64,000 nucleotides of DNA from Acidilobus saccharovorans 345-15 (GTDB lineage: Archaea; Thermoproteota; Thermoprotei_A; Sulfolobales; Acidilobaceae): assembly GCF_000144915.1 (NCBI RefSeq), contig NC_014374.1, positions 434,001-498,000 of the forward strand, read 5' to 3'. Below the pieces are notes generated by a model. It did no database searches, was not told where the DNA came from, and was given only the letters and a program-made list of their open reading frames with translations. The translations under genes and the position numbers were made by a program. This document shows positions 10,740-38,565 of this stretch, piece by piece (position 1 is the first letter of the stretch; each line of letters opens with the position of its first letter).

Positions 10740-12398
10740 TTAGCTGCTCCCGCTGCTGCCACTTGAGGGGCTTTCCTCGCCCTCCTTGCCCTTCTTCTCC
10801 TCCTTCGGCGGCGCTGCGGCTATGAGGTCATCTATCTTGAGCAGGGCTATGGCGGCCTCAGAGGCTCCCTTTATTACCTGCTTCTTGACCAACAGAGGCT
10901 CGTAAACGTTTATGTCTAACATGTTCTCAGCAGTCTTGCTGTTAAGTACGTCAACGCCAGCGAATGTGAGCTTCTTGCTGTGCAGGGATCTGAGCTGCAT
11001 CACGGTGTCAAGCGGGTCCATGCCGGCGCTCTCGGCCAGCACGCTCGGTATGGTCTCAAGGGCGTCTGCGAAGGCCTCTATGGCGAGCTGCTCCTTGCCT
11101 CCTATGGTGGCAGCGTAGTCCCTGAGCTGCATGGCAATCTCAACCTCTGGGGCACCTCCGCCGCCCACTATCTTTGGCTCCCTCATTATGTTCCTCAGTG
11201 CGTGAAGCACGTCGTTAAGGTTCCTCTCAGCCTCGTCAAGTAGCATGTCGTTGGCTCCGCGGAGCAGTATGGTCACGCTCCTGGGGTTCTTGGCGCCCTC
11301 TATGAAGACCATCTTGTCATTGCCGACCTTCCTCTCCTCGACTAGGTCAGCGTAGCCCAGGCTCTCAGGCTTGAGGTCCCTCACGCTGGTCACTATCTTG
11401 GCACCGGTAGCCTTGGCCAGCTTCTCTATGTCGCTCCTCTTGGCCCTCCTGACGGCAAGTATCCCCTTCTTCGCCAGGAAGTGCTGGGCCACGTCGTCAA
11501 TTCCCTTCTGGGTTATCACAACGTTGGCGCCGGTGGCGGCTATCTGGTCTACCATGTCCTTAAGTATCTTGGTCTCCTCATCTAGGAACGAGTCGAGCTG
11601 GTCGACGTCGCTTACCCTTATCTTTGTTGTTATGTCAGGCTTCTGTATCTCAAGCGGGGCGTCGAGCACGGCTATCTTTGCGTGCTCGACCCTCCTTGGC
11701 ATGCCTGGGTGGACGACCTCCTTGTCGAGGACTATGCCCCTGACGAGCACGGAGTCCATTAGGCTCTCTCCCTTCTTCTTCTCTATCTTGATGTTGTCAA
11801 GGTCTACGTTGAAGCCGCCCTCTGGCTTGGGCTCGGCAACTATCTTTATGGCGTTAACCGCCAGGTCCACCATCTTGTCCTTCTCAGGCCCCTGGCCCGC
11901 GTACTTGCTGCCTATGGTGGTGTAGGCTATCTTCCTGAGGTTCTCGTCATTGTTCACGTCGACAGGCATGGCTATCTTGTCCAGGATCTCAAGGGCCTTA
12001 TTCATGGCCTTGGTGTAGCCGTCAATTATGATTGACGGGTGTATGTTCTGCTCCAGCAGGGCCTCGGCCTTCTCCAGCAGCGCCCCGGCGAGTACTACGA
12101 CGCTGGTGGTGCCGTCGCCCACCTCAGCGTCCTGGGCCTTAGCTATTTCAACTAGGAGCTTGGCAGCGGGGTGCTGGACCTCCATCTCCTTAACTATAGT
12201 GGCGCCATCGTTAGTTACTGTGACGTCACCGAACGAGTCTATTAGCATCTTATCCAGGCCGCGAGGCCCGAGGCTTGTCTTAAGCATCTCTGCCAGGACC
12301 TGGGCAGCTAGTATATTATTCCTCATGGCCTCCCTGCCGTAAGACCTCTGGGTTCCTTCCTTGAGTATCAGCACGGGTATCCCTTGGGCTGCCGCCAT
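10740..12398 (-). CDS. Thermosome subunit (group II chaperonin)
   Basis: From ATG 12398 the product is 552 residues, usual for thermosome subunits. The start beginning [12 protein letters not shown] is preferred over an upstream TTG (12422), because GGTGGTG lies just ahead of it and the TATA box at 12444-12453 puts initiation near 12420. Signatures include [34 protein letters not shown] (ATP binding) and, near the middle, GGGAPEVE. The C-terminus is a K/E-rich stretch ending in S/G repeats rather than the GGM repeats of many chaperonins. The complex folds proteins in the cytosol and is heat-shock induced in relatives. Confidence 0.97.
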
Positions 12399-19511: not shown

Positions 19512-19793
19512 ATGGGGACGCTCTTGAAGAAGGACAGGGAAGACTCTCCAGAGCCTCCGAGGGGAGTCATAGAGGTCGAGGGCCTTGCCATGAACGGCCT
19601 CCTGAAGAGCTTCAGCGTTGAGGACTGCGGCAAGCCAAAGGGGTACCAGAGGATAGTGGCAGAGACCATAGATGGCAGGGTAATTAAAACTGGGTGCCTC
19701 GAGCCTGACGCCGCCAGGAGGGAAGTCATGGTAATGAACTTATACCTCAGGCAGTGGAGTAAGTTTATTGTAAGGCAGGACTCAGGCCGGTGA
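19512..19793 (+). CDS. Uncharacterised small protein
   Basis: The 93-residue product starts at ATG 19512, about 36 nt after a TATA-like GTTATAATCC. It shows no signal peptide or membrane helix. The middle (about residues 20-70) looks like a small beta-rich domain with two cysteines (about 39 and 63); the C-terminus is helical. I recognise no family. It could form a unit with the next gene, 35 nt downstream. The codon usage (AGG, GAG, ATA) matches neighbours, which supports coding. Confidence 0.6.
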   Translation: MGTLLKKDREDSPEPPRGVIEVEGLAMNGLLKSFSVEDCGKPKGYQRIVAETIDGRVIKTGCLEPDAARREVMVMNLYLRQWSKFIVRQDSGR

Positions 19794-20210: not shown

Positions 20211-20525
20211 TTACTTAGGTTCCTTCTTAGAAAGCCTCTCCAGGCACCTGGATATCTGTTCATCCACAATAATAGCCGATGCCATAAAGCCCTTGTTCAG
20301 ATCAGCCAGCGATTCAGGAGCTGCGGCGTAGAAGTCCCTTATGAGCCTCGCAATGGCAGCCCTTACCAGCGAGCTCTTGCTGACGTGGCAGATCTCGGCT
20401 ATGGCGTTTATTGCTATAGACTCGGGCAGCGATATCTTAGCGCTTATAGTTATAATCTTTGAGACGTTTATGTCGTCAAGTGATATTATCTCAGCGCCCT
20501 GCGTTTCGGAGTACACGCTCTGCAT
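20211..20525 (-). CDS. Ribbon-helix-helix transcription regulator
   Basis: From ATG 20525 the product is 104 residues. The segment from about 27 to 65 (ITISAKISLPESIAINAI, then a SKSSLVRAAIARLI helix) has the beta-strand plus two-helix form of MetJ/Arc-type DNA-binding proteins, which act as dimers of dimers on palindromes. The C-terminal half is helical and may dimerise or sense a ligand. A GTG at 20540 is in frame but would put the start inside the operator-like palindrome at 20539-20555. The TATA element at 20557-20568 predicts initiation near 20538, so ATG 20525 fits. Negative autoregulation is the obvious inference. Confidence 0.72.
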   Translation of the reverse strand: MQSVYSETQGAEIISLDDINVSKIITISAKISLPESIAINAIAEICHVSKSSLVRAAIARLIRDFYAAAPESLADLNKGFMASAIIVDEQISRCLERLSKKEPK

Positions 20526-20538
20526 AGCGTAAAGCCCC

Positions 20539-20555
20539 ACAGGTTAATAACCTGT
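20539..20555. promoter_or_regulatory. 17-nt perfect palindrome, probable operator of the RHH gene
   Basis: ACAGGTTA-A-TAACCTGT is a perfect palindrome around one central base. It lies between the TATA element (20557-20568, minus strand GATAATAATTAG) and the ATG at 20525, covering the expected initiation site. A protein bound here would block transcription, as expected for an autorepressor. Confidence 0.65.
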
Positions 20556-20597
20556 ACTAATTATTATCCTATTCCTGTCGAAAGAGGGGAAATACCC

Positions 20598-21221
20598 TTA
20601 TTTTTTAACGCTAAACCGATTCCATAGTTCAACGCGAAGCTCCTCCATAAAGAACCTTCGGCTAGCCAAGACTTCATCCATGTGAAGCCCCTCGTTCCTA
20701 AGACAGCTGTCTACATTAAACGAGGACAATGACGACCTTACTATAAGCACCTCGTTGCCGGCCTCAGCGGCATCCCTGCACAGCCTTTCATGGTTTGCGC
20801 CCTCGCTCCACGCCATGAACTCCCAGAAGTCGCACTCATCATGAGGAATATCGCTCGAGGGCAGGTATGGAGGGTTAAGTATTATCAGATCCCATCCACC
20901 GCTGAGGCACCTGGCACCATCGCATTGTATAACTGCCGCGTCAGGGCCTAGCGTTGCCCTGGCGCACTCAACAGCGTAGGGAGAGATGTCAACAGCGACA
21001 AGCCTTCTAGGGCGGAAAAGGAGCAAAGACGCCAACGCCAGCACGCCAGAACCCGTGCCAAGGTCAAGCACGGCCTCGTAGGTCCTTCCCATCTCCTTGA
21101 GTTTTACCATAGCGTCTATCGCTAACAGAGAGTCGTCGCTAGGCTCGTAAACACACCTGGACAAGGCCACTCTAAGCCTTCCAGCCGCAGTAGTTATATC
21201 TGCCCACCTAAGCTCAGCCAC
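20598..21221 (-). CDS. HemK/Mtq2-like N5-glutamine methyltransferase
   Basis: Starting at GTG 21221, the product is 207 residues, the length of archaeal HemK-like enzymes; the longer open frame upstream runs over ksgA and is not used. Visible motifs are DLGTGSG (53-59, SAM binding), VAVDIS (about 75-80) and NPPY (116-119), which holds the target amide. The archaeal members methylate the GGQ glutamine of release factor aRF1. It overlaps ksgA by 28 nt and is the last gene of the DUF655-ksgA-hemK operon, an order common in archaea. Confidence 0.88.
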   Translation of the reverse strand: MAELRWADITTAAGRLRVALSRCVYEPSDDSLLAIDAMVKLKEMGRTYEAVLDLGTGSGVLALASLLLFRPRRLVAVDISPYAVECARATLGPDAAVIQCDGARCLSGGWDLIILNPPYLPSSDIPHDECDFWEFMAWSEGANHERLCRDAAEAGNEVLIVRSSLSSFNVDSCLRNEGLHMDEVLASRRFFMEELRVELWNRFSVKK

Positions 21222-22967: not shown

Positions 22968-23330
22968 ATGAGCGAGGAGGGCGGCAAAGGAAGGAGGAGG
23001 ATGGATCTCCCAAAGAGACGCGAGGACCTGGAAAGGATATCTGAAGAAGTTGAGGCCAGGGAGCACTCGGAGATGGAAGAGGAGCATCACCACCATCATC
23101 ATGAGGAGGAAGTGGAGGACGTCGTCTCTGTCCTTGAGCTTCTGGTGGACTCGCTGAACGCGAACTACAAGAGCCTGGAGTCCACGGTTAACATTCACTC
23201 TGATGAGATAATAAGGATATACAAGATATTGGCCAAGATAGTGGAGGCGTGCGGGGAAACGGATCCCTCAGCCCGGGAGAAGAGCCTTAAGGAGGCAGTA
23301 GAGCTCCTTCAGCCTCCAGTTAAGGCCTAG
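22968..23330 (+). CDS. Small acidic coiled-coil protein with a natural six-histidine tract
   Basis: The 120-residue product starts at ATG 22968, 30-40 nt after a TATA-like CACTTTAAGCC. The first half is very charged: a K/R-rich start, then an acidic helix and HHHHHH at 40-45 flanked by EEE on both sides. The second half (about 50-118) forms one or two helices with heptad-like leucines and could be a coiled coil (VSVLELLVDSLNANYKSLESTV). The histidine tract may bind metal (Ni, Zn or Co). No family recognised. It is convergent with the GT2 gene, overlapping by 4 nt. Confidence 0.7.
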   Translation: MSEEGGKGRRRMDLPKRREDLERISEEVEAREHSEMEEEHHHHHHEEEVEDVVSVLELLVDSLNANYKSLESTVNIHSDEIIRIYKILAKIVEACGETDPSAREKSLKEAVELLQPPVKA

Positions 23331-26726: not shown

Positions 26727-28054
26727 CAGGGCGTTAGCCTCTCTGGGTCCCTTGGGAGCAGCCTGGCCTCCCTCACGTTATCAAGGTTAAGGAACTGTTT
26801 AACTATCCTCTCCAGCCCAAGGCCCGCCCCGCCGTGCGGAGGCGCCCCGTACTTGAAGAAGTTCAAGTAGAACTGGAACCTCTCAGGGTTCAAGCCCTTG
26901 TCCCTGAGGTTCGCGAGCAGCTGGTCATACCTGTGCTCCCTCTGGCTGCCGGTGGCTATCTCAAGGCCCCTGAAGAGGAGGTCGAAGCCCAGCGTCCACT
27001 CCGGCTCCTGGGGCTTCCTCATCGTGTAGAAGGGCCTGACCTTCCACGGGTACTCGGTGACGAAGATGAAGTCGCTGTCGTACTCCTTAAGGGCATAGTC
27101 GCCGAGCTCGCGCTCCGCCTGGGGGTCAAGGTCCTCCATGTAGGGCAGCTGGTGGTTGTACCTCTCTTTGAGGACCTCGTACGCCTCCCTTATGGTTATA
27201 CGGGGTACCTTGGACGGCACCCTGAGCGCCAGGTCGAAGTAGTTGCGGACAGTCTCAATGGAGTCGTCAATCTCGGCCTCCTTAGCGAGGTACCTGAAGA
27301 AGGACTCAAGCATGTTCATTACATCCTCCGGCCCCTCTATGAAGCCCATCTCTATGTCAAGCCCGTGAAACTCCGTTAAGTGCTTCACGGTGTGGTGGGC
27401 CTCGGCCCTGAAGACGGGGCCCACCTCGAAGACCCTCTCAAGGCCTGCTATGACCGCCATCTGCTTATAGAACTGGGGGCTCTGGGCCAGGTAAGCCTCC
27501 CTGCCAAAGTATATCACAGGGAAGACCTCGGCTCCGCCCTCGGTGCCGGCAGCCACTATCTTAGGCGTGAACACCTCGACGAAGCCGTTCTGCCTGAAGA
27601 ACTCCCTGAACTTGTTGGCGACCCATGATTCAAACTGGAAGATGGCCGACACCTTAAGGTTCCTGACGTCAAGCCACCTGTAGTCAAGCCTCACGTTGAG
27701 CTGGGCCTCGGTGCTCGTGGCCGGTTCAAGGGGTATGGGCTCCACAGGCTTTGAGAGGACCTGAATGCCTGAGGCCTGAAGCTCGTACTTCAGCTTGCTC
27801 TTGCTTTCAACAAGGGTGCCCTCAAAGCAGGCCACGGTTTCCTTGACAAGCTCCTTAGAGGTTTCTATGGCAGTCTCGGGGGTCACGCCTTTCTTTATAA
27901 CGACCTGAAGGACGCCGCTCCTGTCCCTGAGCAGCACAAACCTGACGCCGCCCAGGTCCCTTATGTTGTCGACCCAGCCGCACACTCTGATTTTCTGGCC
28001 TAGTAGGCTGTTAGCCCTGTCGTATACCTGGGAAATGAAGCTGTCCTTTAGCAC
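26726..28054 (-). CDS. aspS: Aspartyl-tRNA synthetase (archaeal type, probably non-discriminating)
   Basis: From GTG 28054 the product is 442 residues, close to archaeal AspRS. It has an OB-fold anticodon-binding domain (VCGWVDNIRDLGGVRFVLLRDRSG) and class II motifs: motif 2 FRAEAHHTVKHLTEFHGLDIE, and motif 3 GGAGLGLERIV near the end. The presence of GatCAB in the same window fits a non-discriminating enzyme that also charges tRNA-Asn. An ATG at 28120 would add 22 residues; the TATA-like TTAAAAATAT at 28084-28093 favours GTG 28054 with a leader under 15 nt. Confidence 0.93.
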   Translation of the reverse strand: MLKDSFISQVYDRANSLLGQKIRVCGWVDNIRDLGGVRFVLLRDRSGVLQVVIKKGVTPETAIETSKELVKETVACFEGTLVESKSKLKYELQASGIQVLSKPVEPIPLEPATSTEAQLNVRLDYRWLDVRNLKVSAIFQFESWVANKFREFFRQNGFVEVFTPKIVAAGTEGGAEVFPVIYFGREAYLAQSPQFYKQMAVIAGLERVFEVGPVFRAEAHHTVKHLTEFHGLDIEMGFIEGPEDVMNMLESFFRYLAKEAEIDDSIETVRNYFDLALRVPSKVPRITIREAYEVLKERYNHQLPYMEDLDPQAERELGDYALKEYDSDFIFVTEYPWKVRPFYTMRKPQEPEWTLGFDLLFRGLEIATGSQREHRYDQLLANLRDKGLNPERFQFYLNFFKYGAPPHGGAGLGLERIVKQFLNLDNVREARLLPRDPERLTP

Positions 28055-37413: not shown

Positions 37414-38565
37414 ATGGAGGAGAAGCAGGACTTCGTGTGGCCAGATTATACTACTGAGAGCAACCTGTACTCCGTCTCATGTGGCCTTGCGGAGTTCTTT
37501 GGTGTCAAAAGGCAGTGTATAGGCAAGAGCTTTGAGATAACTGGCAGGAGGCTGGTACTTATATACCTTGACGCGCTCAGCTGGGACCTCTTCGTGGAGT
37601 CGGGAGTCAAGGTGTCAGGCTCTGTAACTAGGGCTACTACGGTGTTCCCATCAACAACTGCCGCGGCCTTGAGCACCTTAATGACGGCCCAGTCGCCGGG
37701 CGAGCACGGTCTAGTGGGCTACACGGTCTTCAATAAAAGGCTCGGCGGCGTGATAAACGGAATAAAGTACTCGTATATGGCTGAGAGCGGGTCTGGTACC
37801 ATAGATTATATGCCGCTTCAGAGGGCGTTTCCCGTCAAGCCATGGCTTGCTGAGAGCTCAGCCAAGGTGTTGGCGCTCATGTCAAGCGGCGCCGCCAGCG
37901 GGGAGCTCACCAGGACCTACTTGAACACCAGGCCTCAGGAGGGCCTAACTAAGATAAAGTCCCACTCCAACTCGTTTGAGATGGTGGCCTCCCTCAGGGA
38001 GGCTTTAGAGGGTGAGCCCTACGACCTCATATACGTGTACTATGATAACCCTGACCACATAGGGCACGGCTATGGCTTTAGGAGCCAGCACAGGGACCTG
38101 ATACTTGAGGAGCTCAGGCTCACCTTGACGCACTTGGACGAGCTCGCCCAGAAGTACAAGGACAGGTACACGTTCCTGCTGCTGTCAGATCACGGTCAAG
38201 TAACCGTGAACAACGTCTATGTGTTTAACAATGACGAGGAGTTACTTAAGGTGCTTGAGGTGCCTCCCTACGGCGACTCAAGGGCCGTCTGGTTCAGGAC
38301 CAGGGAGAACATAAGGGACATGCTAAAGTCCAAGTATAAGCTCGAGGTGATGAGCAAGCAGGAGGTCATAGAGAGCGGCATACTTGGCAGGGTCGACGGC
38401 TTTGTAGCTGATAACATACTGGGTGACTACCTGGGCGTGGCGACGGACCCGGCCTCCAAGTACCACTACTCTTACAGGGATGACGACCCTGCCCTGAGGC
38501 TCAGGGGCAACCACAGCGGAATGACGCCTGAAGAGATGTACATACCCCTGGTGGTCTGGCAGTAA
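37414..38565 (+). CDS. Alkaline-phosphatase-superfamily phosphodiesterase
   Basis: The 383-residue protein looks like a nucleotide pyrophosphatase/phosphodiesterase (type I). It has LIYLDALSWDLF (first metal Asp), TVFPSTTAAALSTLMT (nucleophile Thr region, about 74-89), YYDNPDHIGHGYG (DxxxH, about 209-221), SDHGQ (about 253-257) and NHSGMT (about 369-374), a full two-metal set. No signal peptide or membrane helix is seen, so it may act in the cytosol. Substrate unknown. TATA-like AGTTAAAGCC (37372-37381) and GGGAGG precede ATG 37414. Confidence 0.9.
   Translation: MEEKQDFVWPDYTTESNLYSVSCGLAEFFGVKRQCIGKSFEITGRRLVLIYLDALSWDLFVESGVKVSGSVTRATTVFPSTTAAALSTLMTAQSPGEHGLVGYTVFNKRLGGVINGIKYSYMAESGSGTIDYMPLQRAFPVKPWLAESSAKVLALMSSGAASGELTRTYLNTRPQEGLTKIKSHSNSFEMVASLREALEGEPYDLIYVYYDNPDHIGHGYGFRSQHRDLILEELRLTLTHLDELAQKYKDRYTFLLLSDHGQVTVNNVYVFNNDEELLKVLEVPPYGDSRAVWFRTRENIRDMLKSKYKLEVMSKQEVIESGILGRVDGFVADNILGDYLGVATDPASKYHYSYRDDDPALRLRGNHSGMTPEEMYIPLVVWQ

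Follow-up and report, generated by a model that had tools for sequence, protein, structure and literature searches.

Does the perfect palindrome in front of a small ribbon-helix-helix (RHH) gene of the thermoacidophilic archaeon Acidilobus saccharovorans serve as an operator by which the gene product represses its own synthesis? The question was addressed within a stretch of 64,000 nucleotides (bases 434001–498000 of the single-contig genome of 1,496,453 bp), referred to as the window. The palindrome, ACAGGTTAATAACCTGT, sits in a 57-bp gap between the stop of a hemK-like gene and the RHH open reading frame (ORF), and all 8 of its arm pairs match, as the sequence-only reading that singled it out had stated. 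That reading placed it exactly between a TATA-like element and the start codon. A TATA-like stretch is indeed located immediately upstream on the minus strand, but the palindrome overlaps the GTG codon proposed as the start (20538–20540) by 2 nt. When upstream regions from four members of the genus are aligned, the ATG codon at 20523–20525 falls opposite TTG in one relative and GTG in another. This ATG is therefore the likelier start, giving a protein of probably 104 residues, and with it the palindrome lies wholly upstream, ending 13 nt before the ATG. The positions of the features are shown in Table 1.

Table 1 Coordinates of the features at the RHH locus (window numbering).
Feature	Position	Strand	Basis or remark
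Candidate operator: perfect 17-bp palindrome ACAGGTTA-A-TAACCTGT	20539..20555	.	Sequence search, upstream-region comparison
TATA-like AT-rich element AGGATAATAATTAG	about 20557..20570	-	Read from sequence
RHH protein ORF	20211..20540	-	GTG start of the sequence-only reading, 109 aa; ATG 20523-20525 likelier, 104 aa
Predicted DNA-reading strand, K28-L38 (KIITISAKISL; T31, S33, K35)	20427..20459	-	Alignments; register with other RHH proteins
Cys51 codon, helix A-B junction	20388..20390	-	Ortholog alignment
Cys99 codon, conserved in C-terminal extension	20244..20246	-	Ortholog alignment
Small four-cysteine protein (C-x4-C ... C-x3-C), convergent neighbour, 125 aa	19829..20206	+	Conserved across family
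HemK2/MTQ2-like methyltransferase gene, upstream, same direction	20598..21200	-	Mechanical ORF extends to 21362

Homology indicates that the gene product is a genuine but divergent and lineage-specific RHH protein. The window protein alone matched no RHH model in Pfam, NCBIfam or PHROGs and did not reach a curated family cut-off. Among 16 orthologs, however, 8 matched a NikA-like Pfam model (best 1.8e-5) and 3 matched RHH_1, and in a profile-profile comparison the family profile aligned in register with aCcr1-like archaeal RHH proteins (E 8e-5, at a probability of only 33%). These matches, together with the family alignment, delineate an N-terminal strand, two helices and the turn G-x-S/T-R/K-S-x-x-I/V-R characteristic of the fold, and the earlier identification of an RHH gene was confirmed by the profile register and the ortholog matches. 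Within the predicted DNA-reading strand, S33 and K35 are nearly invariant across the family, while T31 is invariant within the two nearest genera (g1 and g5) and not beyond; the roles of these three residues in base contacts are presumed from CopG-type proteins. A structure model from the single sequence was poor (pLDDT 43.6). A model of 87 residues from four sequences reached a mean pLDDT of 65.5, with the helices placed as in RHH proteins, no strand called, and a C-terminal part that is misplaced in the input alignment; a fold search of the PDB with it gave nothing below E 2. Membership of the aCcr1 family (NF053762) was considered and rejected, as the window protein has no match to the model, which 5 of the 16 family members matched weakly (best E 0.0029). 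Stronger aCcr1-like RHH genes are present elsewhere in the genome, at 378138 and 1468354, and these too are below the family cut-off. With the patterns used, a search of viral contigs for a viral or mobile origin gave no relative.

The orthologs, 21 including the window protein, all belong to one archaeal family. Those from 16 genomes of four genera (g1, g5, g6 and g7) match over most of their length, and five more (four in g8 and one in g12) were accepted on a weak match combined with tail-to-tail adjacency to the gene for the 125-residue neighbour. Matches were obtained in 11 of 60 genomes by sequence search (own genome counted), in 40 of 48 family genomes by profile search, where many are short matches to generic RHH proteins, and in 21 of 300 genomes of the phylum, where only short or weak matches were seen outside the family. 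The named relatives retrieved by similarity belong to the Acidilobaceae and Caldisphaera. The RHH protein evolves fast, since it is only 38% identical to that of the nearest relative, versus 55–88% for the neighbouring proteins searched. Of 48 family genomes, 41 have the 125-residue neighbour, which matched nothing in Pfam or NCBIfam. Its four cysteine columns (C-x4-C...C-x3-C in window numbering) are common to all 27 aligned sequences; the four sequences of the window's genus each have two extra cysteines, and one other sequence has five in total. The two genes are tail-to-tail for 12 of the 21 RHH orthologs (4 in g1, 2 in g6, 1 in g7, 4 in g8 and 1 in g12), 5 of which were accepted as orthologs partly by this adjacency, leaving an independent count of 7 of 16. 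Two further small uncharacterised proteins (19512–19793 and 22968–23330, both on the plus strand) recur near the gene for the 125-residue protein in many family genomes.

The C-terminal half of the RHH protein is an extension that is missing from short RHH proteins, and its sole well conserved column is Cys99. Equivalents of Cys51 and Cys99 occur together in 15 of the 21 orthologs. The four g8 orthologs have no Cys51 equivalent and carry a cysteine at the end of helix B instead, with the C-terminal cysteine kept. All 21 sequences thus contain either a pair of cysteines or none: two close relatives have none, and no sequence has just one. Counting every cysteine, 16 orthologs have exactly two, 3 have three and 2 have none. 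In thermophilic archaea, even cysteine numbers are reported to be favoured and have been taken as a sign of disulfides (PMC3177088). The co-occurrence of the cysteines, this even-number pattern and the same pattern in the convergent neighbour suggest that Cys51 and Cys99 probably form a structural disulfide tying the helical extension to the RHH core, which fits better than a sensor. The earlier suggestion that the C-terminal half is unlike common RHH regulators was upheld as regards the extension itself, with signal sensing as the less likely role.

Perfect inverted repeats with arms of at least 8 bp and a spacer of 0–6 occur 4 times in the window, compared with 7.4 ± 2.5 in 20 model sequences, and the form of the palindrome alone is therefore not significant; with a spacer of 1, 2 were found and 0.9 expected. 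The other perfect repeats with 8-bp arms are at 12019–12038, 26850–26869 and 37987–38003. With regard to placement, the RHH gene ranks first among 67 mechanically called window genes as the only one with an 8/8 palindrome within 80 nt upstream. The repeat overlaps the promoter of the regulator gene itself, as looked for in an autorepressor. Shuffles of the 130 nt that precede the conserved RHH strand gave p = 0.017, and a looser spacing rule applied to the upstream stretch of the gene gave p = 0.06. We regard these placement statistics as mild evidence, because the palindrome had been picked after a scan of the whole window.

Comparison with relatives was less favourable to the palindrome. None of the 14 other ortholog promoters tested, three of them from the same genus, contains it; the best palindrome among them has 7 of 8 pairs and is GC-rich (p 0.28), and the other 13 promoters have at most 6. 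Six g6 orthologs, whose gene directly follows another ORF, were kept apart from this set, and the shuffle test under the looser rule found no significant repeat upstream of them. Near the gene, the site was not found at up to 3 mismatches in three same-genus genomes (G001, G002 and G003) or in three g5 genomes. Half-site words were not enriched in 15 promoters (AGGTTA in 3 of 15 versus 2.1 expected; best word p 0.08). The upstream alignment contains two clades, 47–51% identical across the whole aligned stretch. The sequence-only reading had named loss of the palindrome in relatives that keep the gene as an observation that would refute it, and this is largely what the 14 promoters show. Nor did a genome-wide search reveal a regulon for the 17-mer: the 1.5-Mb genome has no second convincing site, and the single other place with no more than 3 mismatches is located in a long open frame. 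By simple arithmetic, about 6 places at up to 3 mismatches are expected in the genome at even base composition, so that no such place is informative. Given the near-invariant S33 and K35 (and T31 in the two nearest genera), a conserved half-site would be expected, which counts against the palindrome as an operator of the whole family; an operator specific to this species would be compatible with the conserved reading residues. Five g5 orthologs (L024–L028) carry an imperfect inverted block, with TTAC or TTAA and then GGTAAAC as its approximate sequence, directly before a TATA-like stretch, and this block is a possible operator of that genus.

The best single explanation, to which we assign a probability of about 0.4, is that the palindrome is a species-specific operator for negative autoregulation by promoter occlusion, with a chance palindrome as its nearest competitor. 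It is favoured because an exact palindrome is located in the promoter of a DNA-binding protein's own gene, as the only 8/8 case among the 67 genes and with the p value of 0.017. Specifically, two RHH dimers are predicted to bind the two half-sites of 8 bp, which have a centre-to-centre distance of 9 bp. So placed, the dimers would lie directly downstream of the TATA-like element and cover the presumed transcription start, and once bound they would block the transcription machinery and thereby repress the RHH gene. The site geometry agrees with occlusion as described for archaeal viral RHH regulators (PMC5569661). The original proposal of negative autoregulation, drawn from the half-site and its place, is partly supported: it fits the geometry, but the failure of orthologs to keep the site and the lack of a 17-mer regulon count against it.

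That the inverted repeat arose by chance in an AT-rich promoter, with the RHH protein acting elsewhere on a different sequence, is a tentative second choice. It accounts for the number of such repeats in the window, which is below expectation, for the absence of the palindrome from the 14 other promoters and from the vicinity of the gene in the three same-genus genomes, and for the isolated 3-mismatch place in the genome; it does not account for the first rank among the 67 upstream regions or for a position where an autorepressor would bind. A different regulator of the RHH gene, such as a dimer of the Lrp or MarR type, might use the site instead, since a 17-bp inverted repeat would suit many dimeric regulators and nothing in it appears specific to RHH proteins. 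We consider this unlikely, as a trans-acting regulator usually has several sites and no second convincing copy was found in the genome.

Slightly less likely again is that the RHH protein is mainly a partner of the convergent four-cysteine protein, regulating or neutralising it, so that its own promoter would be beside the point. The tail-to-tail arrangement in five genera and the paired cysteines in both proteins are in line with such a role, but 41 of the 48 family genomes encode the four-cysteine protein, compared with 21 recognised RHH orthologs, so that it has no need for the RHH protein, the two genes are apart in g5, and convergent genes share no promoter. A more elaborate version, in which a family-restricted RHH regulator, locked by a disulfide and carrying a third helix, would form a redox-linked pair with the four-cysteine neighbour, the Cys51-Cys99 bond would set DNA binding and the operator would be re-invented in each lineage, is improbable. 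Least probable of all, the palindrome could act as an RNA hairpin that hides the start codon when transcription of the hemK operon reads through. A stem of 7 bp with a loop of 3 nt can be drawn, but we rejected this reading because the hairpin is missing from the minimum-energy fold and the region is folded no more strongly than shuffles (z -0.97).

To our knowledge, RHH regulators encoded on the chromosomes of crenarchaea other than Sulfolobales have been little studied. On the species-specific autorepression reading, the RHH gene and its palindrome would constitute at most an ordinary self-control switch of this species: one more simple autorepressor, with a rapidly turning-over operator, useful mainly for testing how fast an operator changes when the reading residues do not. 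The cysteines offer a small and testable example of residues that are gained and lost in pairs in a DNA-binding protein.

Among known systems, the aCcr1 family of archaeal cell-cycle regulators shares the RHH fold with the window protein and its profile aligns in register, but the aCcr1-like proteins compared are without the C-terminal extension. SvtR, AvtR and F55 are likewise small archaeal RHH proteins (PMC5569661); autorepression, with sites that are imperfect inverted repeats, is reported for SvtR and AvtR, and binding to its own promoter among others for F55. These three are viral, whereas the window gene is chromosomal, lies in a conserved neighbourhood and has a perfect 17-bp palindrome and a cysteine-bearing extension. 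In the 'RH3' protein E73 of a Sulfolobus virus (PMC5569661), a third helix follows the RHH core, and the model of the window protein, which is of moderate confidence, suggests the same layout. Searches against solved structures gave no sequence match between E73 and the window protein, and the resemblance is one of architecture only.
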